Assembly: GCF_014334135.1 (NCBI RefSeq)
Contig: NZ_CP060497.1
Span: 496,001-560,000, forward strand
DNA from: Olivibacter sp. SDN3
GTDB taxonomy: Bacteria > Bacteroidota > Bacteroidia > Sphingobacteriales > Sphingobacteriaceae
DNA length: 64,000 bases
Direction: 5' to 3'
In this document: piece by piece, positions 4,622 to 21,923 of the stretch
Numbering within the stretch: the first letter of the stretch is position 1
How the letters are laid out: each line of letters begins with the position of its first letter
Position numbers and translations under genes: made by a program
The notes under the pieces: model-generated
Databases searched by the model: none
Told to the model about the DNA's origin: nothing
Seen by the model: the letters and a program-made list of their open reading frames with translations, nothing else

Positions 4622-7600
4622 TTAAAAAGACAATTGCAAACCAAAATTGATCATCTTAGTGACCGGATAACCCAGCGCATTATTATTTTCTGGATCTAAA
4701 TGATTTAACCGCAGCTTATCCCAGGTAAATAAGTTCTGGGCACTGGCATATATCCGTAGATTGTTTACGCCCAATGATTGCAAAGCTTGTTTGGGTAATG
4801 TGTACGCTAATTCAATGTAACGTAAGCGTATAAATGATCGATCCATCACAAAAAAATCGTTTGCCACGTGGTTTGTCGTGTTTCTTGTACTCAGAGCGGG
4901 ATAAGTGATGAGGTCTCCGTTGGCATAGCGTTCCGGTGTCCAGGCATTTTTGTGATAGCCAAAGTAGGTGCCATTTTTTGTTGACTCGTAAACCCCCTGT
5001 TCAGCATAATTTTGTGAAAATTTTCCAGCACCTTGAAAGAAAACCGAAAAATCGAATGATTTGTAGCTCATAGATAAATTAAGGCCGTATGTTTGTCTTG
5101 GTATGTTCGAATATCCTATGGGTGCTTGATCGCGATCATCTACAATACCATCTCCATTGAGATCTTGATAGATAAAATCGCCAATGCGGGGCTGTCCGAA
5201 GTTATAGGTAGTATTGTTGAGATAGGCGTCCAGTTCTTCCTGGGAGTTAAATATCCCGTTGCCATTACTGTAATCAATGTGGTAGCCCCAAGCTTGGCCT
5301 ATAGGTTGATACGTTGATTGATAGGGGTAAACAAAAGTTTCATCTCGCCTAACTTCATCCAAGAACTGAATCTCATTACGATTATAGCCATAATTCCCAG
5401 TCACCATCAAGGAAAAATCCTGGCCAAACGTTTTATTATACGTCAGTTCGATCTCATAGCCTTTATTATCAATGACCCCCATATTTACTTTTGGGATATT
5501 GCCCAACGGTACGCCCTGAAGTACGGGTATTGTTTGTCGGTCAATAAGTACATCTGTTCTGTTCTCTATGAAATAATCAAACACGAGGGTGAAATCATTA
5601 ACTAGTTGCAAATCGATTCCATAATTTTGTTTTTGTGCAACTTCCCACGATAAGTTGGGATTCCCTAAGAGACCCTGGTTCACTCCTTGTCCCCTGCCCA
5701 AGCTTCCCAATGGTCCGCCCCCCATGGTAATATTACTTTGGTACAGAAAACGAGCGGCGCCTAAGCGATCATTTCCCACCTTTCCGTAGGAGCCCCTTAA
5801 TTTTAGATTGTCGATAAGCTTGTGGTTCTTTAGAAAATTTTCATTGCTGACTACCCATCCCAAAGAAACTGCGGGAAAAAACCCAAACCTTCTTCCGGGT
5901 GCGAACTGCTCTGAACCATTGTATCCAATGTTTACCTCTCCAAGGTAACGACCATCGTAAGCATAAGTCGTTCTAGCAGCGATACCAATCACATTAAAAG
6001 GTATCTCTCCCACCGTAGATTCCCAATTATCACGCTGGGCCAATATCATTCCTGTGACATCATGCTTCTCCTGAAATGTACGTTGATAGTTGATCGACCC
6101 CTGTAAATTAATATTGTAGCGGGAATCCGCTCCTTTTGTGATAGATAACAGGCGCTCGTCATTGCGTAAAACAGTGTAGCTAAGTTCATCTGTTGCATAA
6201 TTTACATTTGCTAAGTACAGACGTTCGTGTTTATCTCCCGACATGGCCGTCGTTGCACGGGTATCATATGAAACCATTCCTTTTACGCTGAGACCTTGTG
6301 TAATGGCGTTACTCAAATCCCAATCCAAACCTAAGGTAGTATTCAGGTTAGAACGCATTTCATTCCGAAAGCCATGCCTATTCATAATTTCGAATGCCGA
6401 ACGATCGAGATATCCTGGATCTACGAGCTGACCAGGTTCAACGCCAAATCCGGGAATAGCAGTTGGTCCTGGAGTAATAGGTAAAATGGATTGTGCCTGA
6501 AATAATATATCGGTCATCATCCAATCTGTATTATGCCCATATTGCCACGCAGCAGGCATATTTACCTGTTCGATATAACTTCCAATATTCAGGAAAGACT
6601 TCAGTGCAGGAGAGATTTTATAATCCAGATTTGCACGGAAATTATATCTCTTGAGCCAAGATGATGGATCATAACCCAATACCGGCTCAGGCTCTGTTTT
6701 AAGGTTACCTCCTTGGTAAAGGAAAGCGCCATTAACGAAAAAAGAGACTTTATCTGTCCCGCCATGGGCATTTAAGTTGACACGGGTTTGAGGGCTATGC
6801 TTGGCAATAAGTTCGCGGTAATAATCGTGATCGGGATAAATATACCGTCTAATCATTGCTTTTTCTTCATATGCGGGGTCGTTAGGGTCCAATCCCAACA
6901 GCGGGTTTTCGAACTTATTGATGACATCTTGACCAAAAGGCTCTGTTATCCCGTCATTGCGGGCAGCCTCATTACGCAATGCTAAATATTCCAGTGAATG
7001 TAACCTTTCAGGCTCTCTTGTAAATGAGGTATACGATTGATCGAGTGTTGCAGTTAATTCGGTCTTTCCTTCGGAACCTCTTCTGGTAGTAATTAATATG
7101 ACACCATTCGCACCCCGCACACCAAAAACGGCGGTTGCCGATGCATCTTTAAGTACGGTAACCGATTCTACCTCATTCGCGTCGAGGGTTCGTATATTAT
7201 CACGGGGAACGCCGTCAATCAGGATCAGCGGACTGGTATTATTTGTGGTAGCAGCACCACGCAAATACAATGTGGGATCATCGCGCCCGGGCTGACCACC
7301 ACCACCTTGCAAAGAAGTTAAACCAGGGAGCCTCCCTGCCAGCGCACTAGCCAAACTAGCCGATGAATTCTGTCTCAGTTCTTTGTTCTGTACGGTTGAT
7401 ACAGCGCCGGTAACCGATAGTTTTTTTTGCGTACCATAACCCACTACCACTACCTCGCTTAAGTTCTCATTTACTACTGTTAACGACACATTGATTTGGT
7501 TCCGGCCATTTATTGAAACACGTTGTGGCGCATAGCCCAAATTATTAAACATCAGTACCCCATCTGGAGAGGCAACAATCGTAAATTGCCCATTATTATC

Positions 7601-7795
7601 CGTTTGCGTAGCGACGTCCGTCCCTTCAACTTTCACGGTTACCAAAGACAGCGGATGTCGATCAGTTGAGTCAAGCACAACACCCGTAATGGTTATCTTT
7701 TCTTGAGCAAAAGCGCTAACCGTATAGTAGAGAAGAAAAAATATGACGGCTGTTCTTAAACCATTTTTTTCCTTCGCTAAAATTTCTTTTGCCAT
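4622..7795 (-). CDS. SusC/RagA-type TonB-dependent receptor
   Basis: A 1057-residue outer-membrane receptor. Residues 1-30 form a signal peptide (VSAFAQ), residues about 34-110 a carboxypeptidase-regulatory-like domain, and VVVVGYGTQKKLSVTGAVS opens the plug, which contains the usual LIDGVP and SVTVLKDASATAVFG blocks. The rest is a 22-strand-type barrel ending in aromatic FGLQLSF. It has no N-terminal STN domain, so it is not expected to signal to an anti-sigma factor, unlike the receptors at 16609 and 28266. It is followed by its SusD 19 bases downstream and then by another SusC. Upstream lies a 556-base intergenic stretch with the twin operator-like repeats, the only visible place for its promoter. 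The imported glycan cannot be read from sequence; context suggests a rhamnose-containing oligosaccharide. Confidence 0.95.
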   Translation of the reverse strand: MAKEILAKEKNGLRTAVIFFLLYYTVSAFAQEKITITGVVLDSTDRHPLSLVTVKVEGTDVATQTDNNGQFTIVASPDGVLMFNNLGYAPQRVSINGRNQINVSLTVVNENLSEVVVVGYGTQKKLSVTGAVSTVQNKELRQNSSASLASALAGRLPGLTSLQGGGGQPGRDDPTLYLRGAATTNNTSPLILIDGVPRDNIRTLDANEVESVTVLKDASATAVFGVRGANGVILITTRRGSEGKTELTATLDQSYTSFTREPERLHSLEYLALRNEAARNDGITEPFGQDVINKFENPLLGLDPNDPAYEEKAMIRRYIYPDHDYYRELIAKHSPQTRVNLNAHGGTDKVSFFVNGAFLYQGGNLKTEPEPVLGYDPSSWLKRYNFRANLDYKISPALKSFLNIGSYIEQVNMPAAWQYGHNTDWMMTDILFQAQSILPITPGPTAIPGFGVEPGQLVDPGYLDRSAFEIMNRHGFRNEMRSNLNTTLGLDWDLSNAITQGLSVKGMVSYDTRATTAMSGDKHERLYLANVNYATDELSYTVLRNDERLLSITKGADSRYNINLQGSINYQRTFQEKHDVTGMILAQRDNWESTVGEIPFNVIGIAARTTYAYDGRYLGEVNIGYNGSEQFAPGRRFGFFPAVSLGWVVSNENFLKNHKLIDNLKLRGSYGKVGNDRLGAARFLYQSNITMGGGPLGSLGRGQGVNQGLLGNPNLSWEVAQKQNYGIDLQLVNDFTLVFDYFIENRTDVLIDRQTIPVLQGVPLGNIPKVNMGVIDNKGYEIELTYNKTFGQDFSLMVTGNYGYNRNEIQFLDEVRRDETFVYPYQSTYQPIGQAWGYHIDYSNGNGIFNSQEELDAYLNNTTYNFGQPRIGDFIYQDLNGDGIVDDRDQAPIGYSNIPRQTYGLNLSMSYKSFDFSVFFQGAGKFSQNYAEQGVYESTKNGTYFGYHKNAWTPERYANGDLITYPALSTRNTTNHVANDFFVMDRSFIRLRYIELAYTLPKQALQSLGVNNLRIYASAQNLFTWDKLRLNHLDPENNNALGYPVTKMINFGLQLSF

Positions 7796-8100
7796 ATCAT
7801 ATAAGTTTAAAATATTGAGTTAATTGGCCATTTATTGTTTTTTGGCGCATAAAAAGCCCGACACACAGCACAAGCTATATGTAAAAAGCTAATCATCAGA
7901 TAGTTACAAATTCTTGTAAATTTAAAGCACCTTTCGCTATGTTCGCGTTGATACGCTTTCTTTAAACAGTTATATTAAAGTATGGCAAAAGGAATTTATG
8001 ATTTAGTTGTTTAACTGAATTTTTAATTTCAACTAAAGAACTAAACACCGATTCATTTAAAAGAAAGTATTAAGTTGTTATTTTGATTTATCTTTACTCA

Positions 8101-8162
8101 TATCACGGTAATTAAAGTTAATAATTGGTTTTGTTATTTTAGGTACTTTTGGTATCACGGTA
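8101..8162. promoter_or_regulatory. Pair of tatcacggta elements upstream of SusC
   Basis: The ten-base sequence tatcacggta occurs at 8101-8110 and again at 8153-8162, 52 bases apart. On the minus strand this reads TACCGTGATA. The core CCGTGATA also occurs at 49941-49948 in the intergenic region between SusC and the AraC regulator. A shared transcription-factor half-site is an inference; chance recurrence of a ten-mer in AT-rich DNA is unlikely but possible. Confidence 0.35.
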
Positions 8163-8281
8163 TACAATCGCTAATAAGCGCCGCTATTAGCATATTAACA
8201 CATAATTTAAGGTTTAATAATCTATTAATTTTTAGAATCAATAGAATATTAACGTAAAGTAAATCAAACAATATAGTATTA

Positions 8282-8321
8282 GCAACCTGTACTATCCTGA
8301 AATGCAACCTGTACTATCCTG
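8282..8321 (-). promoter_or_regulatory. Twin 18-base direct repeat, operator-like
   Basis: The sequence gcaacctgtactatcctg occurs at 8282-8299 and again, identically, at 8304-8321, with a period of 22 bases (about two helical turns). The core cctgtactatcctgaa is found exactly at 33911-33926 upstream of an ECF sigma gene, and a diverged version lies at 49910-49948. Two same-orientation sites about 21-22 bases apart are the geometry used by AraC-family activators. On the minus strand the core reads CAGGATAGTACAGG. Binding by the AraC protein at 50080 is an inference. Confidence 0.6.
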
Positions 8322-8351
8322 CCATCATGTACATAAACTCATCATTATTTA

Positions 8352-11300
8352 TTAAGGCATCACTAACAGTCTAACCGGTCCTTTTAATCCAGCCTGCATC
8401 AAAGAATCTTCTTTTTTATAAGGGTTTACAATTGTCCACGTCTTTCGTTCGGCTTCGGGCAGATTCAGATCGCCTATCAACCGATTTTTCCAGGTATTTG
8501 CTACGCTGATCTCCACACTGTTTTTTCCAGTTTCCACGTAATCGGAGATATCTATACGATAAGGGGGTGTCCAGAGACCACCCACTTCTTTCCCGTTGAC
8601 TTTCACTTTTGCCATTGCAACAAGCTCACCCAGATCAAGCCACAAACGATTACCGTTCTCCAAAGCTTGCTCTAACTCAAAATCCTGTTGATAATGTGCC
8701 TTCCCAGCAAAATACCGTATACTGTCATTGGGATGTTCATTCCACCATATTAATTGATCTATCCCTGCTGTTATAGCGGATCCGGCAATCGTTGAATCAA
8801 AACTAAGTTTCCAGCCGGTATCCAATGTCGATTCCCGTAATGGCTTTGGAAAATTAACTCCCAGATTGCCTGACTCCTGCGACAACGCTTTACGGAAGAT
8901 AACAAAAGCACTTTCAAAGGGTGCGAGTTGCAATGGCACTTGTATGCCACTGTCCGATGCTTTAAATTCGGGCAAGTCTCTAATGGAACCGTCGATTGCG
9001 TTCCACCATTCTGGCTGTTTTCCCTTTACCCTAAAAATAGGTTCAATGTGTATCGTACTATCCAATTGATTCGATATAAAATATATTTCGCCGTCAGGCA
9101 ATGTCCGGTGGATAAAAAGTGTCGCATCATCTTTATCCAATAGCACATCTGGACGCACCTGTAAGTGCTCAAAAGCTTCCGTCAGATCCATTCCATCTAA
9201 CACAAGGCCTTTACCAACCTTATTCGCTTTTATTTCCTTTCCATCAATATTTCCCCACAATTGTTCTCCGAGTTTCTGCACCTGCTGATCGGCCTGTTCG
9301 CCATGTTGTAAGCTAGGTGATCGCTGTGGTCGGGGTCCCAAAATCGTTCCACCAGCTTTTACCAAATCGCTAATTCTCTCCAATAGTTCCGGCCGCATGG
9401 TCTGCAGTTGAGGAAGTACCAATATGCTATACGATAAACCATCAGGCAGCACAAATTTACCATCCTCCACTTGCAGGCGATTCAATATGATTTCGGCATT
9501 GATATAATCGAAATCATAACCTTTTGGTAGCGAAGGATCTTGCACACCCGTCATTTTAGGCACATCTTCTCCAATGAAGTAAGCCACATCTGCTACATAA
9601 GTTCCTTGCTGGAGCATAAAATTCGCCCGTTTCAAATAGGCGGTAAAATCATCCATGTAATCATACCAGGTATTAAAACGGTTAAATTCGTTACCGAACC
9701 AAGCGTTCACACCAGGCTGCTTATCTTCGTAAGCTTGATGGATATACACATGCAGTAACGTGTTGTTAATTCCTTCGGCAAAAAACCGGTCGCCACGCTG
9801 CTTCATCATTGCAGGGTAACGGCCAAAGGTATTACCAGCAGCAGTAAAAGATTCTGCAGAAACTTTTCGTTTTCCATAGATATGAGCTGCGGAGGAGGCC
9901 GCTCGGTTCTCGATATCACCCAGCTCACCTTCACTCCAAAATTCGCCCCCTACTTCATCTGACTGTCCACCGTATTGTAAGAACTCTCCCGGAAAACCCC
10001 AGTGTCCGTAATTCTCCAGCCAGATGGTAAGTCCGTGTTTATGGCTCACATCCCTTAAACCGCCAACGTATTCATAAGCCACATTATCTGCCACAAAGCG
10101 CCGCAAATCCCACAGAAAGCGATCGGCGTCATCTTGACTTTCCACCACATTTCCATACAGTACGGGTATAAAAGGTAAAGGATCATAACCAAATTGTTTC
10201 TTAAACTTTTCAATAAAATCATCCGTCCAATTTTGCCCGCCCATTTCATAGCTGTCTTGTACCGCCACTTTAAATGTTCGACGATCTTCGGCTGGAATTC
10301 TCCTTAGAATCTCTCCCATAAAAGCGTCAAAATGCTGAATAGCATGTTGATGATTCAATTTGTCTATCTCAAGCCCCGTACCTTCCACAGAGGCAGGTCC
10401 GTTTTTTGCTCCTGTGGGTAGCATTCCCGTTCTGAGCACAACCCATTCACCTTCGGGAACGTCCCAGTTCAACATGCCATCCGAAGATAAATGGTCTGTA
10501 ATATCCAGCACCTCTTCCCGCTGGATAAGATGTTCCCCGCTCACTATTGTAGCCTGTTCTTCCCATTGATAATCGTGCCAATACGGAAGAGGCGTCGGAT
10601 GCATTTTGGCCAAAGATTTTTCCTTGATTCGCTCTACCCTCGGTGTACTCGCTATTTCTACCTCGGCAACACCCGCGTCTTGTGAAACATTTTCAAAAGT
10701 AACCCGGAATTCCCTACTGGCAACCTCCGGAAATGAAACGATCACAGGGGCATATGGCTCAAATCCAACGTTGATTTCGTTATTCGAACGATCGATGGTG
10801 AACTTCTTCAATTGCCGGTATCCGTTATTCTCCTTTATTTCCAACACCACATCCATACGCATATTACGCTTGGCCGGATATACCGTAAAACTACGAGCGG
10901 TATATGGTGTTTGCGATTGGAGGTCAATACGCGTAGGCGCTCCTTCAGGAATCAGCAATTCGGTGTCGTGATTTTTATCGATCAGCTGTTGCAAACCCTT
11001 TAATGTCGGCCGACTTGATAATTGCGGCTTCAGCTCAGACAGGGTCTTGCCGTAATCTTTTGGCGCCCGGAAAGCGACCACTTTTACATCCTCAAAGTCA
11101 CCCGCAGGTTTACCGAGTTTTTCCGAAACCTTTTTAGGCCCGCGAAAAACATTTTCTGACTTCGCTAAGTAGCGCATGGCCTGCTCCGGCTTTACCCAAG
11201 GGCCGCCGGACTGGCTCCATCCCGGACTATTGAACATCCCAATCTCTATATTCAGCTCTGTAGCCTTTTTCAATGCGGCATGGGTGATTTCCCACCATTC

Positions 11301-11612
11301 GTCGGAAAAAAGCTTCACCTCGCCATATTGCGTTTCATTCTCTGGTAGCCCAATATTACCAATAAAGGCCCGGTTGATTCCAACACGCTTCATTGCTTCC
11401 AGATCTTTTTCTACCCCTTCCTTGGATAAATTATCGGAAATCCAATACCAATAAACACTGGTTTGCACGCTATCCGGAGGAGTCTTAAATCCAGCGGCTA
11501 TGGTCGAGAAATCAGGGTTTTCATTGTTCTTACATGAATAAAAACATAGCATCACGCAAAAGGAAATAAAAAACACAACTGGATTTTTATTTAAAAGATC
11601 GGCTTTCATCAT
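8352..11612 (-). CDS. GH106-type alpha-L-rhamnosidase, lipoprotein
   Basis: A 1086-residue protein with a lipoprotein signal (lipobox FYSC, Cys about residue 27), so probably attached to the outer membrane. The N-terminal part SVYWYWISDNLSKEGVEKDL with GINRAFIGNIG is the TIM-barrel opening typical of GH106. Candidate acidic catalytic residues are E456 (QDSYEMGG) and E587 (SAESFTAAG), in the same relative motifs as in the other GH106-like proteins of this window. The C-terminus (GKAHYQQDFEL, KVNGKEVGGLWTPPYRIDI) is the galactose-binding-like beta-sandwich seen in GH106 and GH2 enzymes. The family cleaves terminal alpha-L-rhamnose from pectic glycans. It is transcribed alone or ahead of the SusC pair 556 bases downstream, and is divergent from the SDR gene. 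A degenerate operator-like site lies 59-72 bases before the start. GH106 membership is likely but was judged by eye. Confidence 0.85.
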   Translation of the reverse strand: MMKADLLNKNPVVFFISFCVMLCFYSCKNNENPDFSTIAAGFKTPPDSVQTSVYWYWISDNLSKEGVEKDLEAMKRVGINRAFIGNIGLPENETQYGEVKLFSDEWWEITHAALKKATELNIEIGMFNSPGWSQSGGPWVKPEQAMRYLAKSENVFRGPKKVSEKLGKPAGDFEDVKVVAFRAPKDYGKTLSELKPQLSSRPTLKGLQQLIDKNHDTELLIPEGAPTRIDLQSQTPYTARSFTVYPAKRNMRMDVVLEIKENNGYRQLKKFTIDRSNNEINVGFEPYAPVIVSFPEVASREFRVTFENVSQDAGVAEVEIASTPRVERIKEKSLAKMHPTPLPYWHDYQWEEQATIVSGEHLIQREEVLDITDHLSSDGMLNWDVPEGEWVVLRTGMLPTGAKNGPASVEGTGLEIDKLNHQHAIQHFDAFMGEILRRIPAEDRRTFKVAVQDSYEMGGQNWTDDFIEKFKKQFGYDPLPFIPVLYGNVVESQDDADRFLWDLRRFVADNVAYEYVGGLRDVSHKHGLTIWLENYGHWGFPGEFLQYGGQSDEVGGEFWSEGELGDIENRAASSAAHIYGKRKVSAESFTAAGNTFGRYPAMMKQRGDRFFAEGINNTLLHVYIHQAYEDKQPGVNAWFGNEFNRFNTWYDYMDDFTAYLKRANFMLQQGTYVADVAYFIGEDVPKMTGVQDPSLPKGYDFDYINAEIILNRLQVEDGKFVLPDGLSYSILVLPQLQTMRPELLERISDLVKAGGTILGPRPQRSPSLQHGEQADQQVQKLGEQLWGNIDGKEIKANKVGKGLVLDGMDLTEAFEHLQVRPDVLLDKDDATLFIHRTLPDGEIYFISNQLDSTIHIEPIFRVKGKQPEWWNAIDGSIRDLPEFKASDSGIQVPLQLAPFESAFVIFRKALSQESGNLGVNFPKPLRESTLDTGWKLSFDSTIAGSAITAGIDQLIWWNEHPNDSIRYFAGKAHYQQDFELEQALENGNRLWLDLGELVAMAKVKVNGKEVGGLWTPPYRIDISDYVETGKNSVEISVANTWKNRLIGDLNLPEAERKTWTIVNPYKKEDSLMQAGLKGPVRLLVMP

Positions 11613-11670
11613 TAGGAATTATATGGTAGTTAACAGGCAGCAATTTACATCAATCGCCAAGAATATCTGT

Positions 11671-11684
11671 CCTGCACCTACCTG
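11671..11684 (-). promoter_or_regulatory. Degenerate copy of the cctgtactatcctg element
   Basis: The sequence cctgcacctacctg matches cctgtactatcctg at 10 of 14 positions, including both outer cctg ends. It lies 59-72 bases upstream of the GH106 start at 11612, the same distance at which related elements precede the two ECF sigma genes. It also lies between this gene and the divergent SDR gene, so it could serve either. The match is weak on its own; the position is what makes it worth listing. Confidence 0.3.
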
Positions 11685-11744
11685 TCGATTTTCTAATAAT
11701 TTTTTGAAGATACCATTTATTGTTTTATCTTCAATTCATCAATT

Positions 11745-12515
11745 ATGAGTAATTATCCATCAGTAGTTATCGTGACAGGTGCCGGTATAGGTATCGGTTT
11801 TGAGGTTTGTTGTGAACTTGCAAAAAGTGGCAGTGCCGTCGTACTCAATGACCTATCGAAAGATGTTACCGCCAAGGCGGTGGAAACCATTCAACAGCAA
11901 GGCGGAAATTGCATTGGCGTACCCGGCGATGCATCAGACGCTGCTATTATCAAGAAGCTGATCAACACGGCAGTAAAGCATTTTGGCTACCTATCAGCCG
12001 TTGTGGCCAATGCGGGCATTACAGTTTACGGTGATTTTCTGCATTACAAGAGGGATGATCTACATGAGATATTACAGACCAATATTATAGGAAGTTTTTT
12101 TATTGCGCAAGCAGCGGCTCAACAGATGATCCAACAGGATACAGGTGGCAGCATACTCTTCATGTCGTCGGTTACGGGGCATCAAGCACACAGTAACTTG
12201 GTAGCTTACGGGATGACGAAGGCAGCCTTAGAGATGCTGGCAAAGGGTTTGGTAACGGAGCTCTCCCCTCACCAAATCAACGTGAACGCGGTAGCTCCAG
12301 GAGCTACCCTCACCGAACGCACACAACAGTTTCCCGACTATGAAAAAATATGGTCGAAAGTAACACCCATGGGAAGACCCGCATATACCACAGATATTGC
12401 CAAAACTGCCAAGTTCTTAATATCGGAAGACGCCAGACATATCACTGGCCAAACGCTCATTGTAGACGGCGGCTGGACCTCGGTCAGTCCCCTTCCTCCA
12501 CCCGAGTCCATTTAA
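11745..12515 (+). CDS. SDR-family NAD(P)-dependent oxidoreductase
   Basis: A 256-residue classical short-chain dehydrogenase/reductase. The Rossmann dinucleotide motif TGAGIGIG begins at residue 11, the structural NAG motif is at 89-91, and the catalytic set is S142, Y155 and K159 (YGMTK). The tail HITGQTLIVDGGW is the usual C-terminal signature. Acidic D36 after the second strand (LNDL) hints at NAD preference. No signal peptide, so cytoplasmic. Such proteins include sugar 1-dehydrogenases (for example L-rhamnose or L-fucose dehydrogenases) and 3-oxoacyl reductases; sequence alone does not decide. It is one of the few plus-strand genes, divergent from GH106 and convergent with the FMN-motif protein gene (12 bases between stops). 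A role in sugar oxidation is suggested only by its neighbours. Confidence 0.88.
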   Translation: MSNYPSVVIVTGAGIGIGFEVCCELAKSGSAVVLNDLSKDVTAKAVETIQQQGGNCIGVPGDASDAAIIKKLINTAVKHFGYLSAVVANAGITVYGDFLHYKRDDLHEILQTNIIGSFFIAQAAAQQMIQQDTGGSILFMSSVTGHQAHSNLVAYGMTKAALEMLAKGLVTELSPHQINVNAVAPGATLTERTQQFPDYEKIWSKVTPMGRPAYTTDIAKTAKFLISEDARHITGQTLIVDGGWTSVSPLPPPESI

Positions 12516-12527
12516 GTTCAATAGCCA

Positions 12528-13694
12528 TTAGTTATTGGTTATATCGTGTTCCTCTTCATAACGTGCTAGTAGTTTTCGCGTTTGCTGATCTTCTATGTTC
12601 TTATTGGACAAGACATGATAAGCTTTTAAAGAGACGAAACGGTTGGGGTGTTCTAATAGTCCTGCCATGGTGTCTATCGTCTCCTCTTCAACAGCCTGAG
12701 CGGCATATAAGCCTAACACATCATGGATAATATCCGGGCTCCACGTCGAAAGGTTTTTATTCCATATTTTTTGAGCGGAGATCGACAGGTTTTCTGCCAG
12801 GTTAAATTTACGTAGCAACAATTTTTGCTGTGCATTACTGATCTGCAAGAGCTTATTAGCCAATTGAAGTTGAAATTTTTCAGATTGTAAACTCGCTTTG
12901 TTAATCGCGTTTATACTACGTTCTGAAAGCAGGTAATTATCATCCGAAATATTATCCAATAAAAGTTCTTCTAGCTCCTGCGAGTTTTCCTGCTGAGTGG
13001 ATAGTAAACCTAATGCCCAGATTTTGTCGCCATTGTCCGCACTCCTTAAGATATCTGCCAGCAAAGGCAACGATAGTTGATCAACCGTGTGATTTACCAC
13101 CTCCTGCTTGGTTGATCCGTAAACGTAGTGCCATAATTTGTAGGTAGTATATACGGCTCCGCTCACTACGTGCTGTAACACGTCCGTTCGAGTAGCGCCT
13201 GTTAAGCCATCCAAGACGGTTTTATTACTATCGGCATTCACAATTAGATCTTCCGGAGATAACGTCGCCAATGGCGACAGCGAATCGGCTAAAATTTCAT
13301 TCAAGCGATGGTATTCCTGTTCTGAAAATGGTTCATGGTCTGTCTTACTCAGAAATTCGCCAGGCGGTAGGGCAATTCCCAGATAACGTCCGGTGACATT
13401 CCAATAGATGGATAAATTCAGTGGTCGACATTGTCCGTCAAAACAAACTTCAGCGACTAACTTTCGATAATAACACACTGGTGAACCGCCTTCCTTCAAC
13501 ACCTGATAAAGGGTATCCGGACCTTCAACTTCATCGACGATATATGCTTTTGCCGTCATCAAATCGGCATTCACGGCAATGGGCACCGTTGGTGTCAAAA
13601 AGTAGCGCGTCCACTTTTCCTGTCCAAAAACGTGCGTTGTGGTCAACAAGTGACACAGAAGAATCAGCAGTATATTTTGATAGTTATCCCTCAT
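12528..13694 (-). CDS. Secreted protein with FMN-binding/flavinylation motif and helical repeats
   Basis: A 388-residue exported protein (signal peptide ending HVFGQ). Residues 70-170 contain three cysteines (74, 84, 89), a hydrophobic beta-rich part (SIYWNVTGRYLGIALPPG) and then DGLTGAT at 162-168, which fits the Dxx(S/T)GA(T/S) consensus for covalent FMN attachment by ApbE; T168 would be the acceptor. The motif is followed by VVSGAVYTTYKLW. The second half is all-helical with leucine-rich repeats resembling HEAT repeats (for example PNRFVSLKAYHVLSN). FMN-bind domains are known electron carriers outside the cytoplasm. Here the gene is last in the ECF-controlled operon, 49 bases after the FAD oxidoreductase, so it may accept electrons from it. 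No ApbE gene is in the window. The motif is seen; flavinylation and the redox role are inferred. Without the motif this would be a protein of unknown function. Confidence 0.7.
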   Translation of the reverse strand: MRDNYQNILLILLCHLLTTTHVFGQEKWTRYFLTPTVPIAVNADLMTAKAYIVDEVEGPDTLYQVLKEGGSPVCYYRKLVAEVCFDGQCRPLNLSIYWNVTGRYLGIALPPGEFLSKTDHEPFSEQEYHRLNEILADSLSPLATLSPEDLIVNADSNKTVLDGLTGATRTDVLQHVVSGAVYTTYKLWHYVYGSTKQEVVNHTVDQLSLPLLADILRSADNGDKIWALGLLSTQQENSQELEELLLDNISDDNYLLSERSINAINKASLQSEKFQLQLANKLLQISNAQQKLLLRKFNLAENLSISAQKIWNKNLSTWSPDIIHDVLGLYAAQAVEEETIDTMAGLLEHPNRFVSLKAYHVLSNKNIEDQQTRKLLARYEEEHDITNN

Positions 13695-13743
13695 TAAAAC
13701 GCGTCAAACACTTAATATGACATACATTAACAACATGAACCTA

Positions 13744-15102
13744 TTACTTTGGTACAATTCCCCCGTACTGACTAATCATATCTTGCACATCTATTACAGG
13801 GACGTCCGCAAGAGGTATATCCAGTTTACAGGCCAAAGCTGCCGCTGCGCCGGCGGCCTGCCCCATCCCCATACAGGAAGCCTGCACCCGCAAGGCAGAA
13901 TTCGCCAGGCGGTCGCTACTCAAGCATCTGCCAGCCACTATAAAGTTTCGACTATTTTTAGGAATAAGTGCCCTGAACGGAATAGTGGGAACCATACCTT
14001 CTTCGAGTTGCTTAGGCACTACCCCGTGCGCATCGTGCAAGTCAATGGGATAATACGAATAAGAAAGTGCGTCATCGAATTTGCGCCCGCTGATATAATC
14101 CTCATGCGTAATCTTATAAAGTCCATCGATCCGATACGTTTCGCGTACGGCCACCTCCGTTCGCATCATCCCAATACGCACCTGTTCACAACCGGGCATT
14201 TCCTTAAAAAACCGTAACGTCCTTAAAGCAGACGATCTAGCTTTTATATTAGCTAATGTGTGTGTTTCCGAGGTAGAAGAGTCTGCTCCGGCGATGTGCT
14301 GTGGCGTGGTATCCCCTTTATTATTTAAGAAAGCTCCCAAATTTGTGACCTCCCCTTTCACCAGTTCACCACGTGCTACAGCTGCGGCATATGCTGCTTT
14401 TATTTTTTCCATGTCTAAGCGTTCGGCATCGAAACCCTCGATGGTAAACATCAGCGTACCCGGTTGCGTTTCGGATTCACGAAGCACTGGAAAACCAGCC
14501 ATAGAAGCCACAAAGGCATTTCCCGTCGTATCAATGAGCTGTTTGCATATAACTTCCGTGCTCGTACCTTTTCCCTGCAGAAGCACCTTCCAGTGACCAT
14601 TCTTAAAGGTTGCCGAAACCGGCGTTTCATAGAAACGCAGCTCCACACCTGCCTCCACACATTTTTCTTCCGCTAGCAGCACATAGACTGCCGGATTAAT
14701 GCGTACCTGATGTTTCCAGTGCTGCCTGCCGTGAGGAACTGAAAAATCGGGCAGTACATCGTTGTTCAGCAAAACACTTTCCTGCACAAGCTCCCAACCT
14801 ATTCCACCGATCACTTGCTTCCCCCATGCAAAGAATATTCCGGGAAAAGCGACACCTCCGGTAGTGGTTGTCCCTCCGAGTTGACTGCCACTTTCTACCA
14901 AGATCGTTTGCATACCTGCCCTCCCCGCCTGGATAGCCGCTATGGTTCCCGCTGTTCCACCCCCTACTACCAATACATCAGCTGTCGTTTGCTTTTTCTT
15001 CACCGTATATGGCTGTACATATTCCTCTCCATGCAATAAACCAGGGGTAGCCGCCCCCAAGGATAGCGCGCCTAATCTAGCCAGTAGTGCTCGTCTTTTC
15101 AT
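13744..15102 (-). CDS. Tat-exported FAD-dependent oxidoreductase (FAD_oxidored type)
   Basis: A 452-residue protein. The N-terminus MKRRALLARLGALSLGAATP looks like a twin-arginine signal (RR at 3-4 followed by a hydrophobic stretch), implying export of a folded, cofactor-loaded enzyme to the periplasm. ADVLVVGGGTAGTIAAI (about residues 41-57) is the GxGxxG FAD-binding fold, followed by LVESGSQLGGTTTTGGV, typical of the FAD_oxidored family. The C-terminal block FIVAGRCLSSDRLANSALRVQASCMGMGQAAGAAAAL is also characteristic. Members are common in Bacteroidota PULs but few have an assigned substrate. It follows SusD by 39 bases and precedes the FMN-motif protein, which makes a periplasmic redox pair plausible. 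Substrate candidates are a sugar or uronate hydroxyl of the imported glycan; nothing in the sequence decides this. Confidence 0.85.
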   Translation of the reverse strand: MKRRALLARLGALSLGAATPGLLHGEEYVQPYTVKKKQTTADVLVVGGGTAGTIAAIQAGRAGMQTILVESGSQLGGTTTTGGVAFPGIFFAWGKQVIGGIGWELVQESVLLNNDVLPDFSVPHGRQHWKHQVRINPAVYVLLAEEKCVEAGVELRFYETPVSATFKNGHWKVLLQGKGTSTEVICKQLIDTTGNAFVASMAGFPVLRESETQPGTLMFTIEGFDAERLDMEKIKAAYAAAVARGELVKGEVTNLGAFLNNKGDTTPQHIAGADSSTSETHTLANIKARSSALRTLRFFKEMPGCEQVRIGMMRTEVAVRETYRIDGLYKITHEDYISGRKFDDALSYSYYPIDLHDAHGVVPKQLEEGMVPTIPFRALIPKNSRNFIVAGRCLSSDRLANSALRVQASCMGMGQAAGAAAALACKLDIPLADVPVIDVQDMISQYGGIVPK

Positions 15103-15141: not shown

Positions 15142-16584
15142 CTAATAGCCCGGATTTTGATCTGTTGACGGATCCAAAGCTTTATTATAATTCATTTCGG
15201 AAATCGGGATGGGCCAAAGTAGGTGCTTGGCCGCCACACTCAACCCTTTCCCTCTTTGAATAAGTTCGTTCACTTTATCTGTCCGTTTCAGTTCCAACCA
15301 ACGTTTCCCCTCATATTGAAACTCGTAACCACGTTCTCTAATGACTAAATCAGTGAACGTATTCGCGTTGTAATCAGTCAGCGAATAATCGACTGCCGCA
15401 TTTGCTACCGCCGGGTTATAACCATAAGCCCTCCTATGCACCTGATTCAGGGCTTCCATCGCTTCAGCGGATACCGTACCTGTTGCCCTTGTAGACGCTT
15501 CTGCAAATAGCAGCAATACATCGGCATAACGATAGATGGGATTATCGTTTCCTCCTCCCCCTTGCTCGATCGCCTGTCGGTCAATAAATTTTGAAGAAAC
15601 AAGCGTATTAGGACCCAAGCCAAAATCCACTGTATCCCATAACTGCTTCCGGATATCACCTTCTTCCCATTCCTGATAATTAGGGTTTTCGGCATTTCCA
15701 TGCACCGCGTATGCACCACCGAAATTGAAATTATTGGTACTCGGATGATTGGATATCCATAAAATATAATTCCCTTGACCGATCTGCCGGGCATATTTTA
15801 AAGCGAAAACTTCTTCCGTTGACGTATTTATTTCAGGTCCGTAAAGATTATTCTGAAAATCCTCTTTTGAGACGATAGGCACTAAACCGTACCTATTGGA
15901 TTGCATGGCTTGATAAGCTCGATCCGCAGCTTCCTCATACCTTTCGAGTTCAAGGTATACATCTGCCAATAAAGCCTTTGCCGACCACCTTGTTGGTCTT
16001 CCGACCTGCGTCTGGACCTCGGGAAGGACTTCTTCACTCATCAACAAATCTGCCTCTATCAATTGGTATACATCGTCGACCGAGCTCTTCGGCAAATCCC
16101 GTTCTTCCATATTCCCTTCGGTGCGTAAGGGTAAAGCTCCCCAGTTGCGCACCAGATTAAAATAGTTAAAAGCTCTTAGAAATCTTGCTTCGGCTACATA
16201 GCTATTGGCGTCTTCAACGCTTATTGCATCACCTTGAGGAGCATGAAAGATGATTAGGTTAGCGTTCCTTATACTGAGATAAAACGCATCCCATAACTCT
16301 GCAACCCGGTTAATATTCGCGTCGTTAAGCCCTTGATACTGACTAATAGGCTCCCAGCTTCCACGTCCGTACATAAAGTCGGAATGACATTCCAAAGTAG
16401 CGTGATAAACCGCCATATTTGAACGTAATGGTGTATAGATACTATTGACACCTGTTTGCACGTCTTCTACGGTATTATAAAAACCATCGAGGTCTACGGC
16501 ACGTGGAGATTCTTCCAATATATCATTACAGGCACTTACAAAAATTGCAAGGATAAATATGCTGTATATAAAATGAGTTCTCAT
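15142..16584 (-). CDS. SusD/RagB-type outer-membrane lipoprotein
   Basis: A 480-residue lipoprotein with lipobox VSAC (Cys about residue 19), then NDILEESPRAVDLDGFYNTVEDVQTGVNSIYTPLRS, a common SusD opening. The helical TPR-like core contains ARFLRAFNYFNLVRNWG, and the C-terminus (ERGYEFQYEGKRWLELKRTD, LLWPIPISEMNYN, final NPGY) is diagnostic. It lies 24 bases downstream of the STN-SusC at 16609-19965 and should be its glycan-capturing partner on the cell surface. It is part of the ECF-regulated unit that ends with the FAD oxidoreductase and the FMN-motif protein, so its ligand is probably the compound that these act on. No sequence feature identifies that ligand. Confidence 0.95.
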   Translation of the reverse strand: MRTHFIYSIFILAIFVSACNDILEESPRAVDLDGFYNTVEDVQTGVNSIYTPLRSNMAVYHATLECHSDFMYGRGSWEPISQYQGLNDANINRVAELWDAFYLSIRNANLIIFHAPQGDAISVEDANSYVAEARFLRAFNYFNLVRNWGALPLRTEGNMEERDLPKSSVDDVYQLIEADLLMSEEVLPEVQTQVGRPTRWSAKALLADVYLELERYEEAADRAYQAMQSNRYGLVPIVSKEDFQNNLYGPEINTSTEEVFALKYARQIGQGNYILWISNHPSTNNFNFGGAYAVHGNAENPNYQEWEEGDIRKQLWDTVDFGLGPNTLVSSKFIDRQAIEQGGGGNDNPIYRYADVLLLFAEASTRATGTVSAEAMEALNQVHRRAYGYNPAVANAAVDYSLTDYNANTFTDLVIRERGYEFQYEGKRWLELKRTDKVNELIQRGKGLSVAAKHLLWPIPISEMNYNKALDPSTDQNPGY

Positions 16585-16608: not shown

Positions 16609-19600
16609 TTAAAACCCAGCGGTTAAACCAAACGTAACTCCTTTTGAAGCAGGGTAACTACTATGATCCATACGGTAATTTGTTTCCGGGTCCCACCAGG
16701 AATAACCCGTGAAGGTTAACAGATTCTGACCACTGACATAAACACGCATACTGTTCATCCAAGAAATATTTAATTTTTCAACTGGCAGATCATATGCTAA
16801 TTGAATATTCTTCAGGCGTAGGTAGGTACCGTCCTCAACAAATCTATCCGACACCCTTATAGGTGAATTATTACTGATTATCGGATATTTCGCATTTGGA
16901 TTTTCAGGAGACCAATGATCATAGAGGACATCCTTTGGCATATTCAGGCCAAAGCCGTAGTCCATGGTATTCGTAATGGCACTTGTATTGAAGATATCGT
17001 TTCCTACCGATCCCTGTAAGAAAATCGTTAATTCGAAATTTTTATAATGCATATTGGAATTGAATCCAAAAATAAAATCCGGGTTAGGATCGCCAATATA
17101 AGTTTTATCCAACTGGGATATGTTTCCATCACCGTTGATATCCTTAAACAGAATCCGGCCAGTGGCATCATAGCCCTCTTCCTGATATCCCCAGAATTGC
17201 CCCAAAGGCCTGCCTTCACGCAATATGCTGGTAGCGTCATTGATTGCCACCACGTTGACCTGGTCCCGCAGGATATCCTCACCATCATTCAGCCGGATTA
17301 CCTTATTTCTATTAAAGGCGACGTTTGCATTCACATTCCATTTGAATACATTATTAAAAACCTGTGCATTAAGACCGAATTCAAGACCTTTATTCTGTAC
17401 TTCACCCACGTTCAATATCGTAGTCGTATAACCTAGAGAAGAAGGTAATCTGACTGTATTCAAAAGATCCGTAGTGTTTTTAATATAGTAATCAGCGGTA
17501 AAAAGCACCCTATTGCTCCACAGACCGAGATCCAGCCCCACATCAATCTGCTCAGTAGTTTCCCATCTTAAATTTTGCGGTAATCTACTGCCAGGGGCCA
17601 AAGTATTGGCGAATTCTCCGTTGAATATCGTTCTTCCCGCCTGTAACAAATTGAGGGTCTGATAAGGATTAATAGCCTGACTCCCTGTTTTCCCCCAGCT
17701 GGTCCGCAATTTTAAATCGGAGATTGTTGCATGATCACGTAGAAAATCTTCCTGTGATACACGCCACGCCAATGCGGCGGATGGAAAATAGCCCCATTTA
17801 TCGCCCCGGCTATAACGGGACGATCCATCCCTTCTTAAACTGGCTGTTAATAAATACTTGTCATTATAAGTATAATTCACCCTTCCGAGGAAGGAAAGCA
17901 TGGTCGATTTTTCATAACTGGACCCTGGTATATGATATGGTAGTATCGCCGAATTTGCATCAACCGAGCCCGGCACACCAGGAGTGATTGCCACACCGAG
18001 GTTGTCCGTTCCGAAAACATCACTGATAAACCCTACACCGCCATTATTTAACACCGTGGTTTTGAAATCTTGATAGGTCGCGCCAATAACCGCTGATAAC
18101 TGATGTTTTTCATTGAAGGTTTTACTATAGTTCAGCGTATTCTCATTGAGCAAGCTTGTAAACTGACTAGTTCCAACATTGGCTACACCAAGGGAGTTAA
18201 AAAATTGTCGGGTGCGATAGCGATCTGTGCGATCATCCCTGTTCTCTATCCCGCCGGCGATTTTAAGGAAGAGGTCGGGCGTGATATTATAGGTTAAACC
18301 CAAATTTGCCAGCACCGAGTTTGCGCGGGTAGCCATATTGTCCTCCCTGATGAAATTAATGGGATTGATAATATCGGTAGCGATAAAGGGATACACCGCA
18401 TTGAGCACCCTGTAAGAGCCATCGTCATTATAAGGCGTTACCGTTGGCGGGGCCGATACCGCTGCAGATATCATGGAATTTCCCCGCGAGCCGCCGCCGC
18501 TATCCCGTCGGTCTGTATTCAATTTACTGAGTACAGTTGAAAAGCTTATATTAAATTTATCACTTATTTTATGTTGTATATTGGCCTGTAAAGAGTAACG
18601 TTTATAATTACTTCCTTCAACAATACCTTTTTGATCGAATAAGCTACCGGATAAGGCAAACTGTGTTTTTTCGTTTCCGCCATGCACATTCAACCCAGCT
18701 GTAAACATCGGAGCACTTCTGAAAACAAAATCCTGCCAATCAAAACCTTCATCAAAGGATTCGATATCACTATCAGAAAAAAACGGCTGCGCATTGTCGT
18801 TAATAGCGCGTTGATTATAGAAAAGTGCGTATTCCCTCGCATTCATCAAATCGAGCTTACGGATCAACTGTTGGCTGCTAAAGCTGCTTTCAAAGCCCAC
18901 TCGCGTTTGCCCCTCCCTACCTTTTCGTGTCGTGATCAAGACCACACCACTAGCACCCCTCGAGCCATATATAGCGGTCGCTGAAGCGTCTTTCAGTATT
19001 TCGATACTTTCAATATCGTTGTTGTTTAAATTTGTCGGATTTCCGGAAATTGGAAAACCATCGATTACATATAGTGGCTCATTCCCTCCTTCGATAGAGT
19101 TATTTCCCCGGATACGAACATCCATTGTTGAACCAGGCGCGCCCGATGCTTGTCGGACCTGAACACCCGCGGCCCTACCGCTCAGTGCCTGCAATACATT
19201 TGCCGTAGGAAAAGATTTAATCTCTTCCGGTTTTACCTGCGATACGGATCCGGTAAGATCTGCTTTTCTCACCGTTCCGTAGCCAATCACGACCACTTCA
19301 TCCAATCCCAAAAATTCAGCGGTCAATACTAAATCCAGTCTGGTTTGGCTTTCAGTCGTAATCTCCTGCGTCACATAACCCACACTTTTAAAAATCAGGA
19401 TTTCTCCGGGTGCTACGTCAATAGCATAACGACCTTCTGCATCGGTTGAAGTACCCCTTCCGCTACTTTTCACCACTACACTCACCCCGGAAAGAGTTTG
19501 CCCAATAGAGTCTGTTACGACGCCGCTCACGGTTTGCTGTTTCGGTGTTGACAAGCTTTGTGCTTCAGCAAAGGCAGTTTCGGCTATCTTGGGCTTTTCT

Positions 19601-19965
19601 TTTACAATGATAATTTTGTCTTCCAGATCGTAGGTAATAGGCTGGTCAGTAAAAAGAATAGCCAAAGCTTCTTCGAGTGGCGCATTTTTAACCGACACCT
19701 CTTTTAATGTTAGGCCTTCCAGATCACTTTTCTTATAGAAGAACGTGTATCCTGTTTGTTTTTCTATCTGCTGGAAAACATCTTTGAACGCCGTGTTTTT
19801 TGCGTTCAGCGTAATTTGCTGCGAGTACGAAGCATTTCCCATCAAAGAGGCAAAACAAAAGACGGCGAATAATAACAAATCCTTTGCCGCTGGTCTCAAT
19901 CTGCGATTTGCAGACGCAACCTTCAAGAGCTTTTGCCATAAGCTCGCATCTAAATAAGCATACAT
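16609..19965 (-). CDS. STN-domain SusC-type TonB-dependent transducer/receptor
   Basis: A 1118-residue receptor with a long signal region (about 48 residues, ending NASYSQ), an N-terminal STN domain (about 50-125, with AFKDVFQQIEKQTGYTFFYKKSDLEG), a carboxypeptidase-regulatory-like domain (about 144-215), a plug opened by DEVVVIGYGTVRKADLTGSVSQV, and the barrel, ending FGLTAGF. In this family the STN domain touches the FecR-type anti-sigma factor in the periplasm when ligand is bound, so the receptor both imports and reports its substrate. The genes for that pathway, anti-sigma and ECF sigma, lie directly upstream (20051-21923). The gap to the anti-sigma gene is 85 bases. The SusD partner follows. 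Substrate unknown; neighbours suggest something to be oxidised in the periplasm. Confidence 0.95.
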   Translation of the reverse strand: MYAYLDASLWQKLLKVASANRRLRPAAKDLLLFAVFCFASLMGNASYSQQITLNAKNTAFKDVFQQIEKQTGYTFFYKKSDLEGLTLKEVSVKNAPLEEALAILFTDQPITYDLEDKIIIVKEKPKIAETAFAEAQSLSTPKQQTVSGVVTDSIGQTLSGVSVVVKSSGRGTSTDAEGRYAIDVAPGEILIFKSVGYVTQEITTESQTRLDLVLTAEFLGLDEVVVIGYGTVRKADLTGSVSQVKPEEIKSFPTANVLQALSGRAAGVQVRQASGAPGSTMDVRIRGNNSIEGGNEPLYVIDGFPISGNPTNLNNNDIESIEILKDASATAIYGSRGASGVVLITTRKGREGQTRVGFESSFSSQQLIRKLDLMNAREYALFYNQRAINDNAQPFFSDSDIESFDEGFDWQDFVFRSAPMFTAGLNVHGGNEKTQFALSGSLFDQKGIVEGSNYKRYSLQANIQHKISDKFNISFSTVLSKLNTDRRDSGGGSRGNSMISAAVSAPPTVTPYNDDGSYRVLNAVYPFIATDIINPINFIREDNMATRANSVLANLGLTYNITPDLFLKIAGGIENRDDRTDRYRTRQFFNSLGVANVGTSQFTSLLNENTLNYSKTFNEKHQLSAVIGATYQDFKTTVLNNGGVGFISDVFGTDNLGVAITPGVPGSVDANSAILPYHIPGSSYEKSTMLSFLGRVNYTYNDKYLLTASLRRDGSSRYSRGDKWGYFPSAALAWRVSQEDFLRDHATISDLKLRTSWGKTGSQAINPYQTLNLLQAGRTIFNGEFANTLAPGSRLPQNLRWETTEQIDVGLDLGLWSNRVLFTADYYIKNTTDLLNTVRLPSSLGYTTTILNVGEVQNKGLEFGLNAQVFNNVFKWNVNANVAFNRNKVIRLNDGEDILRDQVNVVAINDATSILREGRPLGQFWGYQEEGYDATGRILFKDINGDGNISQLDKTYIGDPNPDFIFGFNSNMHYKNFELTIFLQGSVGNDIFNTSAITNTMDYGFGLNMPKDVLYDHWSPENPNAKYPIISNNSPIRVSDRFVEDGTYLRLKNIQLAYDLPVEKLNISWMNSMRVYVSGQNLLTFTGYSWWDPETNYRMDHSSYPASKGVTFGLTAGF

Positions 19966-20050: not shown

Positions 20051-21223
20051 TTAACCCGTGATGACTAATTTCTTTCCCTTCAACTCAAAATTTACCCCAA
20101 TTTTCTTCAGCACATTAAGCATTGTAGGGAAAGGGGTGTCTCTTGGCACCCGACCGACAAACTGATCTTCATACCGCAACAGCTGCTCATTATATACCAC
20201 TTCGATATCGTACCATCTTTCCAATTGATGAAGCACTTCTTCCAAGTTATTATCATCGAAGTAGAAATACCCACTTTTCCATGATAAGACCTGATCGGTG
20301 TTCACTTCGACAATTTTTATCTGTCCACTGCCTACATCCGTTGTAGATTGCTGCCCAGGATTCAAGATGCTTTTAACCGCTTTCCCCCCTTCGCTATCCA
20401 GTAAATTCACCATGACTTTACCCGAAGCCAATGTCGTTTGCACCTTATCGTTATCGGGATAAGCGTTCACGTTGAAAACTGTTCCCAACACCTCAACCTC
20501 CTGTAAAGGTGTCTCGACAATAAAAGGCCGTGCTTTTTCGGGAAAAACTTCAAAATAAGCTTCACCGATAAGCTTAACTTTTCGAATAGACCGATTGGCC
20601 ACGCTATAAGTAATGGATGAGGCCGCATTTAACCAAACCTTTGTCCCATCGGGCAGTTCCACCTGAAATTGACCACCCCGAGGTGTTCTAATGGTATTCG
20701 TGGCATTTTGCAACGCACTTTTTTCATCTCCGGAAATACGGTAGGCAAGAAAACCATCTTTATTTTTAGAAATAGAAACACCACTCTCACGGGCTATTTC
20801 GTCAGTAATAGCGCTATCCAAAGTGATGGTTTTACCGTTTGCTAAAACCAAGGTAGCCTGTTCTTTTCCCGGCTGAATTGTGGTATCGTCATATGCACTC
20901 AACTGTTCCATCGGTAGGCTTCCGCGATAAAAATAAATACCCATCCAGGATAAACCGATCAGCAGTAATACTGCAGCGGCAGCAGCTGGCCAAAGGCGGA
21001 TACCTAAGCGAGGCTTTTTCGGATCTTCTCTACCCGTTCGCCGTTTAATTTCGGCCAACAAACGATCGCGATGCTCCTTTTGGTTTGCAGCATAGTTTGA
21101 TGGCACCTCTAGCTCATCGGGAAATTCGTTGTACCACTTGGCGAATTCGGCTTTTTCTGCTGCTGTGATCGTACCATTTAACCACTTGGTGGCTAACTGT
21201 TGATAGCGTTTATCATTAGGCAT
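20051..21223 (-). CDS. FecR-family anti-sigma factor
   Basis: A 390-residue inner-membrane protein. Residues 1-75 form the cytoplasmic sigma-binding part (KRYQQLATKWLNGTITAAEKAEFAKWYN), residues about 78-99 a single transmembrane helix (LWPAAAAAVLLLIGLSWMG), and the periplasmic part contains the FecR domain (TPRGGQFQVELPDGTKVWLNA, IGEAYFEV, LGTVFNVNAYPD) and a C-terminal DUF4974 domain (GYFYFDDNNLEEVLHQLERWYDIEV). It should hold the sigma factor encoded just upstream (21333-21923) until the STN domain of the SusC at 16609 signals. The order sigma, anti-sigma, SusC, SusD is the standard one. The gap to the sigma gene is 109 bases and AT-rich, and could hold a second promoter. Confidence 0.95.
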   Translation of the reverse strand: MPNDKRYQQLATKWLNGTITAAEKAEFAKWYNEFPDELEVPSNYAANQKEHRDRLLAEIKRRTGREDPKKPRLGIRLWPAAAAAVLLLIGLSWMGIYFYRGSLPMEQLSAYDDTTIQPGKEQATLVLANGKTITLDSAITDEIARESGVSISKNKDGFLAYRISGDEKSALQNATNTIRTPRGGQFQVELPDGTKVWLNAASSITYSVANRSIRKVKLIGEAYFEVFPEKARPFIVETPLQEVEVLGTVFNVNAYPDNDKVQTTLASGKVMVNLLDSEGGKAVKSILNPGQQSTTDVGSGQIKIVEVNTDQVLSWKSGYFYFDDNNLEEVLHQLERWYDIEVVYNEQLLRYEDQFVGRVPRDTPFPTMLNVLKKIGVNFELKGKKLVITG

Positions 21224-21332: not shown

Positions 21333-21923
21333 TCAATACAAGTTGTCGAGTATCCAGGAAAAGACAAAGGCTAGCCCGGTAAGCATGTGTGCCAATTTGC
21401 TTTTCAGGAATTTGGTTGCTTTGCCCAAATGGGCCTCTACGGTTTTTTCTGATAGGGATAATACGGTAGCGATCTTTTTTTGTGGTAGACCTTCCTCCCG
21501 GCTCAATCGATAGACCAACCTGCATTTTTCAGGCAGCTCATTTACCCAAACGGCCAATTGCTCCTTCAGCTCATTGAACGATAGCTGTTGCTGCGTACTA
21601 TGGTCTACATAAGCCTGCTTTCCTAACTGTTTCAAGTAACGTTGTTTACTATGCTGTTTATCCAACCATTTAATAACAGCATATTTGACCGCAACGGCTA
21701 AATAGTGGTTTAGAGCAGTTTTTATCTCTAAATTGGCACGACGTTGCCAAAGTCCAACAAAAATATCCTGTACAATTTCTTCAGCATCCTCCAGGCAGTC
21801 AACTTTATGTTTAGCTACCAGTAACATTTTTTGCCAATACCGATCGTAGATTGCAGTAAATGCCTCGCTGTCATCTTTTTTCAGCAAGTCCACTAATTCG
21901 CTATCCGAACGTTCATTGTACAT
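21333..21923 (-). CDS. ECF RNA polymerase sigma factor, FecI-like Bacteroidota type
   Basis: A 196-residue protein with sigma region 2 (FTAIYDRYWQKMLLVAKHKV, DAEEIVQDIFVGLWQRR) and region 4 (LPEKCRLVYRLSREEGLPQKKIATVLSLSEKTVEAHL, a helix-turn-helix). The short hydrophobic tail (LTGLAFVFSWILDNLY) is frequent in Bacteroidota ECF factors paired with FecR proteins. It directs polymerase to the SusC/SusD unit at 12528-19965. The start at 21923 is followed by a normal region 2, so no other start was considered. A 20-base element at 21995-22014, 72-91 bases upstream, nearly matches one before the SusC at 49855, so the sigma gene itself may be under a shared regulator. Confidence 0.95.
   Translation of the reverse strand: MYNERSDSELVDLLKKDDSEAFTAIYDRYWQKMLLVAKHKVDCLEDAEEIVQDIFVGLWQRRANLEIKTALNHYLAVAVKYAVIKWLDKQHSKQRYLKQLGKQAYVDHSTQQQLSFNELKEQLAVWVNELPEKCRLVYRLSREEGLPQKKIATVLSLSEKTVEAHLGKATKFLKSKLAHMLTGLAFVFSWILDNLY

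Follow-up and report, generated by a model that had tools for sequence, protein, structure and literature searches.

RnfG and NqrC are the classic carriers flavinylated by ApbE, flavoenzymes resembling fumarate and urocanate reductases are of the FAD_binding_2 type, and SusC/D systems are usually read as hydrolytic. The available part of PMC12052999 gives the flavinylation consensus as D-x-x-[S/T]-G-A-[S/T] and reports that labelling falls to about half when its Gly is changed to Ala or its Ala to Val. In the accessible portion of PMC8238504, DUF2271 and DUF3570 are named as other ApbE targets, genomes with orphan apbE are put at 4%, and extracytosolic FAD enzymes of the fumarate/urocanate reductase type are described as being served by ApbE-attached FMN. 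Oxidation of glycosides instead of their hydrolysis is documented for flavin-dependent 3-dehydrogenation, in which GlycDH acts with Gfo and a TIM-barrel eliminase (PMC10628242), and for BT2158, a periplasmic glycoside 3-dehydrogenase of B. theta (PMC11300592); the accessible sections of these two papers describe neither a PF12831 enzyme nor a flavinylated carrier.

Here we describe a protein family, FAM, found through a SusC/D operon in a 64,000-nucleotide stretch of the Olivibacter sp. SDN3 genome (the window). Its likeness to NqrC/RnfG (PF04205) lies in an extracytoplasmic domain for which these carriers are the best fold match, in an invariant Thr at the end of the motif, and in an ApbE gene that is often nearby. 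It differs from them in having no PF04205 match, in carrying a HEAT-like C-terminus, and in being encoded in a SusC/D operon; moreover, no NQR or RNF genes were seen adjoining FAM, and its motif often falls outside Dxx[ST]GA[ST]. The fumarate and urocanate reductase-type enzymes are respiratory, whereas the present loci combine a PF12831 enzyme with a separate carrier in a glycan context. In the portions of the open-licence literature available, no description was found of the FAM family or of ApbE as part of a SusC/D operon. The accessible text of two papers touches on the subject in passing: one notes that Maribacter expresses an FAD-dependent oxidoreductase close to a SusC/D pair (PMC11345257), and the other places an ApbE and SusC genes on a single B. 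ovatus genomic island of 170 kb (PMC6232662). The main text of PMC8238504 contains no word starting with 'HEAT', 'Gfo' or 'Bacteroid', and PMC11334425 none starting with 'sugar' or 'carbohydrate'.

A redox gene pair in a SusC/D operon

The operon lies on the reverse strand and runs from an ECF sigma factor (21333..21923) and a FecR anti-sigma factor (20051..21223) through a SusC-like TonB-dependent transporter (16609..19965) and a SusD-like glycan-binding lipoprotein (15142..16584) to an FAD-dependent oxidoreductase (13744..15102, 452 aa) and, 49 bases further on, FAM (12528..13694, 388 aa). Both SusC and SusD are operon members, which identifies a SusC/D glycan-uptake locus, and the operon encodes neither an ApbE nor a cytochrome. 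Only the oxidoreductase and FAM lie between SusD and a convergent short-chain dehydrogenase (SDR) gene, which the opposite strand carries at 11745-12515. The redox pair is the apparent sole cargo of an ECF-controlled SusC/D unit, as a previous sequence-only reading had proposed; its open reading frame positions, its 49-base spacing and its placement of DGLTGAT at residues 162-168 were likewise reproduced. The SDR was considered as an L-rhamnose dehydrogenase, but its model score was far under the cut-off and it was left unused.

The enzyme encoded at 13744, previously read as a Tat-exported protein with an FAD fold, matched PF12831 with an E-value of 8.5e-83 (279.4 bits against a cut-off of 27). 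Its N-terminus carries KRR, and an RR pair stands close to the N-terminus in 14/14 near homologues (signal peptides were assessed by eye; one homologue reads ERR). TatC is encoded in the window genome, and export by the Tat system is accordingly predicted for this twin-arginine protein, the putative electron partner of FAM. Judged by eye from its N-terminus, FAM is also predicted to be exported.

Rhamnosidase genes flank the operon on both sides, and a rhamnose-containing substrate was suggested for this reason: two of the GH78 alpha-L-rhamnosidase type are found in the adjoining locus (22017-24317 and 24320-26695, reverse strand), and one GH106 alpha-L-rhamnosidase lies past the operon end (8352..11612, reverse strand). 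The glycan taken up is therefore possibly a rhamnoside, although the idea is weak and the link is not general. Besides the window, rhamnosidases occurred near the pair at L030, L031/L060, L049 and L059, and phmmer detected them in two of the 14 close-subfamily loci (8 kb flanks).

The window genome holds a second FAM copy (L026, 8954-9907; motif DAVTGAT) in another SusC/D operon, together with a longer FAD-oxidoreductase-like enzyme (7055-8857) and a gene whose product ends in a GH31 C-terminal domain.

Motif, fold and family of FAM

The DGLTGAT motif (13191..13211, reverse strand) fits Dxx[ST]GA[ST], and Thr168 is the predicted FMN site. Its occurrence is unlikely to be due to chance, since the strict motif D..[ST]GA[ST] arose in a fraction of only 0.00085 of 20,000 shuffles of the window FAM and, across 80 homologous loci, was present in 21/78 FAM proteins compared with 2/743 other ORFs. 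None of the 78 FAD oxidoreductase, 82 SusC, 81 SusD and 38 ApbE ORFs of these loci had it, and only two did among the 464 ORFs remaining after FAM and these four classes were set apart. FAM, not the enzyme, is therefore the likely ApbE target. The same counts bear on a different account, in which a co-encoded ApbE serves some other protein and FAM is merely its neighbour. This has a parallel in the window genome, where ApbE is located in another operon near a sulfatase-modifying-factor-like (SUMF-like) protein bearing DAVTRPT; given the concentration of the strict motif in FAM, we consider it very improbable.

Conservation was assessed over 98 homologues (106 proteins before those with the same final 120 residues were collapsed). 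Thr168, whose loss among homologues the sequence-only reading had named as grounds for abandoning a flavinylated FAM, is Thr in 98/98, while Asp162 is Asp in 96 and Asn in two; C84, C89, W98, G102 and A180 are also invariant. The central positions vary. The canonical motif was found in 30/98, frequent variants were DAKAGAT (26), DAVSSAT (14) and DAVTRPT (7), and the motif Ala was replaced by Pro in 16/98. Among 25 Bacteroidota PF04205 proteins, the terminal Thr was kept in all and Pro occurred in none, with variants including DELTAAT, DGISGGT, DAIAGAT, QAITGAT, RNISGAT and VNVSGAT. Separately, C84 and C89 form a CX4C pair (13428-13445 in the window) kept in 98/98, which may make a disulfide or constitute a second redox site.

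A model of the whole protein (mean pLDDT 90.5) comprises a beta-rich N-terminal domain and a HEAT-like tail, in agreement with the HEAT-like character previously ascribed to it; the corresponding Pfam match (HEAT_2, E 0.0041) was under the cut-off. Because fold searches with the whole model returned chiefly HEAT/ARM repeats, with the tail dominating, the N-terminal domain (residues 43-206; 13077..13568, reverse strand) was modelled alone (mean pLDDT 86.5). Foldseek ranks 1-5 were then all NqrC or RNF chain G (best E 0.035), and the top 14 VIA rows comprised 13 NQR chain C/RNF chain G entries and Borrelia BB0365 (Z 6.8-4.9). The best row had a Z of 6.8 over 131 residues at an rmsd of 4.1, Z stayed below 8 throughout, and the first unrelated row tied with row 14 at 4.9. 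The resemblance of the modelled domain to the FMN_bind fold is thus modest, and DGLTGAT sits in a lower-confidence loop of the FAM model.

The window FAM had no Pfam or NCBIfam match above cut-off, PF04205 included; PF04205 was matched by one of the 60 family members scanned (E 0.013), and NCBIfam gave scattered weak matches, one member each. The family profile aligned motif on motif with PDB 8p2b, a named FMN domain (E 0.22), in a search where an unrelated designed protein scored higher (E 0.097). Profile-profile comparison with PF04205 proteins gave 33.6% for a first set (n=5) and 43.5% over 13 columns for a larger one (n=25), falling to 0.1% for the latter with the global option. In the checks that the sequence-only reading had suggested, the predicted structure of the N-terminal domain thus resembled RnfG/NqrC best, modestly, and the window FAM gave no match to PF04205. 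Since the fold resemblance is modest and the profile matches are weak, we did not place FAM in PF04205; it is probably a remote FMN_bind relative that works like an FMN_bind carrier.

Distribution, neighbours and ApbE linkage

A genome_contigs scan with the single sequence gave 16 pattern matches and no relative, whereas an alignment scan with one peptide pattern gave at least 103 relatives; 80 of these were retained, and counts are thus lower bounds. Most of those kept (54/80) came from Dyadobacter, Larkinella, Chitinophaga, Spirosoma, Runella or Sphingobacterium, and one from a Kiritimatiellae MAG. FAM relatives were present in 18/250 sampled genomes of the order, and a phylum-wide draw gave strong matches in 8/395 genomes, counting the window genome and leaving out G318, G436 and one match in G406, which were marginal and fell in the HEAT-like region.

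An FAD oxidoreductase was encoded on the same strand as FAM in 71/78 loci, adjacent to it in 67, and was not detected in the other seven; SusC plus SusD were present in 63/78. The co-occurrence that the sequence-only reading had asked about in other Bacteroidota polysaccharide utilization loci was accordingly seen. At L116 the FAD gene was probably masked in the ORF set by an antisense ORF, and at two further loci (L067 and L091, outside the 78) ApbE is present and the FAM ORF was masked in the same manner. In the phylum-wide draw, the FAD enzyme lay within two genes of FAM in 8/8 loci and ApbE in 2/8, one locus (L208) appearing identical to a Runella locus (L103) of the first set. At four loci of Draconibacterium and related organisms with a DAVSSAT FAM (L050, L055, L057 and L061), no FAD oxidoreductase was found nearby and the neighbours, by eye, resembled a peptidase and an RND efflux set, so that partners of another kind are possible for FAM.

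ApbE was encoded on the same strand within two genes of FAM in 36/78 loci (seven named genera), and was a PF02424 protein in both loci scanned. Two gene orders occurred: FAM, FAD enzyme, ApbE; and FAD enzyme, FAM, ApbE. The second belongs to the subfamily of the window protein, in Larkinella, where ApbE starts 12 bases past FAM in 5/7 loci and is absent in 2/7. The canonical motif was carried by 7/36 ApbE-linked and 14/42 other FAM proteins (non-canonical, 29/36 and 28/42), and the idea that a dedicated ApbE accompanies the unusual motifs was set aside in view of no clear difference. The presence of DAKAGAT and DAVSSAT beside ApbE suggests a wider ApbE recognition motif. At L070 and L071 the motif starts with Asn (NLRTGAT, NVRTGAT) and ApbE is within two genes.

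The mere presence of ApbE in a genome proved less informative. In the order sample, ApbE was encoded by each of the 18 genomes that carry FAM, as the sequence-only reading had asked of them, and none had PF04205; two same-genus genomes without FAM likewise had ApbE and no PF04205. As the base rate of ApbE was 236/250 genomes of the order, this is weak support and we dropped it as an argument for flavinylation. The window genome (G000) itself had no PF04205 match and one ApbE, in another operon than FAM, flanked by genes for Gfo/Idh/MocA and TIM-barrel proteins, beyond which the SUMF-like protein is encoded.

His268 and Asp296 (window genome numbering) were invariant in 39/39 ApbE proteins, those linked to FAM and the window genome's own, and show the same spacing as His257 and Asp285 of V. 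cholerae ApbE in the available part of PMC12052999. The triad Ser position, placed at S252 by spacing alone, was Ala in 32/39. In ApbE proteins of FAM loci (for example L043, 9168-10160), this Ala may reflect a separate lineage of ApbE, or the position may be mapped wrongly.

The apparent lack of the triad Ser in many linked ApbE proteins would suit a reading of FAM as a lapsed FMN_bind relative without flavin, its D..T..T motif a helix cap and the protein assisting the FAD enzyme structurally or as a chaperone; the variable Gly and Ala of the motif, and a family profile that stops short of PF04205, agree with this. Against it, ApbE stands beside FAM in nearly half of the loci, and Bacteroidota PF04205 proteins vary at the same motif positions while keeping their Thr, so that we regard a flavin-free FAM as improbable. 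As far as they could be applied here, the conditions under which the sequence-only reading would give up a flavinylated carrier did not arise, in view of the invariant Thr168, the RnfG/NqrC-like domain and the ApbE linkage; FAM very probably carries covalent FMN.

Proposed electron transfer in glycan loci

We propose that FAM carries electrons outside the cytoplasm. Once it has been exported, the ApbE of the same genome would attach FMN to Thr168 of the RnfG/NqrC-like N-terminal domain, the HEAT-like C-terminus serving as a putative docking surface. The PF12831 enzyme would fold with FAD, leave via Tat and pair with FAM in the periplasm, where the most likely reaction is oxidation of a sugar or aglycone from the glycan imported by SusC/D (a sugar or uronate in the sequence-only reading); electrons would then pass from FADH2 to FMN and on to a c-type cytochrome or the quinone pool. 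We hold it likely overall that an exported FMN carrier and an FAD enzyme act together in this way.

The direction of flow could be the opposite. A membrane donor would in that case reduce FAM, and FAM the FAD enzyme, which would reduce a plant metabolite, for example an aglycone that the rhamnosidases release; the accessible portion of PMC8238504 offers a precedent in extracytosolic fumarate- and urocanate-type reductases fed by flavinylated motifs. However, a DUF7133/HEAT/cytochrome-c-type protein with CxxCH (Pfam assignment made at L043) follows the pair in L043-L047, five of the seven loci from Larkinella. Outflow to the respiratory chain is favoured for this reason, a weak argument, and we think reduction, the chief alternative, unlikely. 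At L043 the cytochrome-c-type gene (10302-13412) is followed by a TIM-barrel gene (13498-14436), and the TIM-barrel proteins of L043-L047 are 58-62% identical to the one beside the window genome's ApbE.

Oxidation, the preferred direction, has its likeness in the GlycDH systems, with a TIM-barrel and a Gfo/Idh/MocA gene by the window genome's ApbE and a TIM-barrel gene in five Larkinella loci. By analogy only, these genes resemble those for C3-oxidation and elimination of glycosides.

The window genome's ApbE operon (L025, 5696-10074) encodes the SUMF-like protein (PF03781), Gfo/Idh/MocA, ApbE and the TIM barrel. The SUMF-like protein was present in 26/61 genomes (25 besides the window genome), and ApbE lay beside SUMF and Gfo in 19 of 20 loci from those 25 genomes (L150-L169), the TIM-barrel gene not being recognised in two of the 19. 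The motif of the SUMF-like protein was DAVTRPT in the 19 loci with ApbE and DAVARPT in L152, without ApbE. When the window genome was scanned at the DNA level for the RPT form of the motif, one match was obtained, against two for the control. The SUMF-like protein may be a further ApbE target. More tentatively, and on balance we doubt it, Bacteroidota glycan catabolism might use a class of ApbE-loaded carriers (FAM with PF12831, and the SUMF-like protein) recognised through a relaxed [DN]xxx[GSRK][AP]T motif, with periplasmic oxidation-elimination rivalling hydrolysis.

As FAM matches no PF04205 profile, surveys based on that family would overlook it. Should FAM prove to be flavinylated, ApbE gains a target in genomes without any PF04205 protein, the motif that it accepts widens, and dedicated electron transfer enters SusC/D systems; FAM also offers a test of the role of PF12831 enzymes in these loci. 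Our results suggest that, in some Bacteroidota, part of the plant sugar used as food is handled by extracytoplasmic redox reactions.
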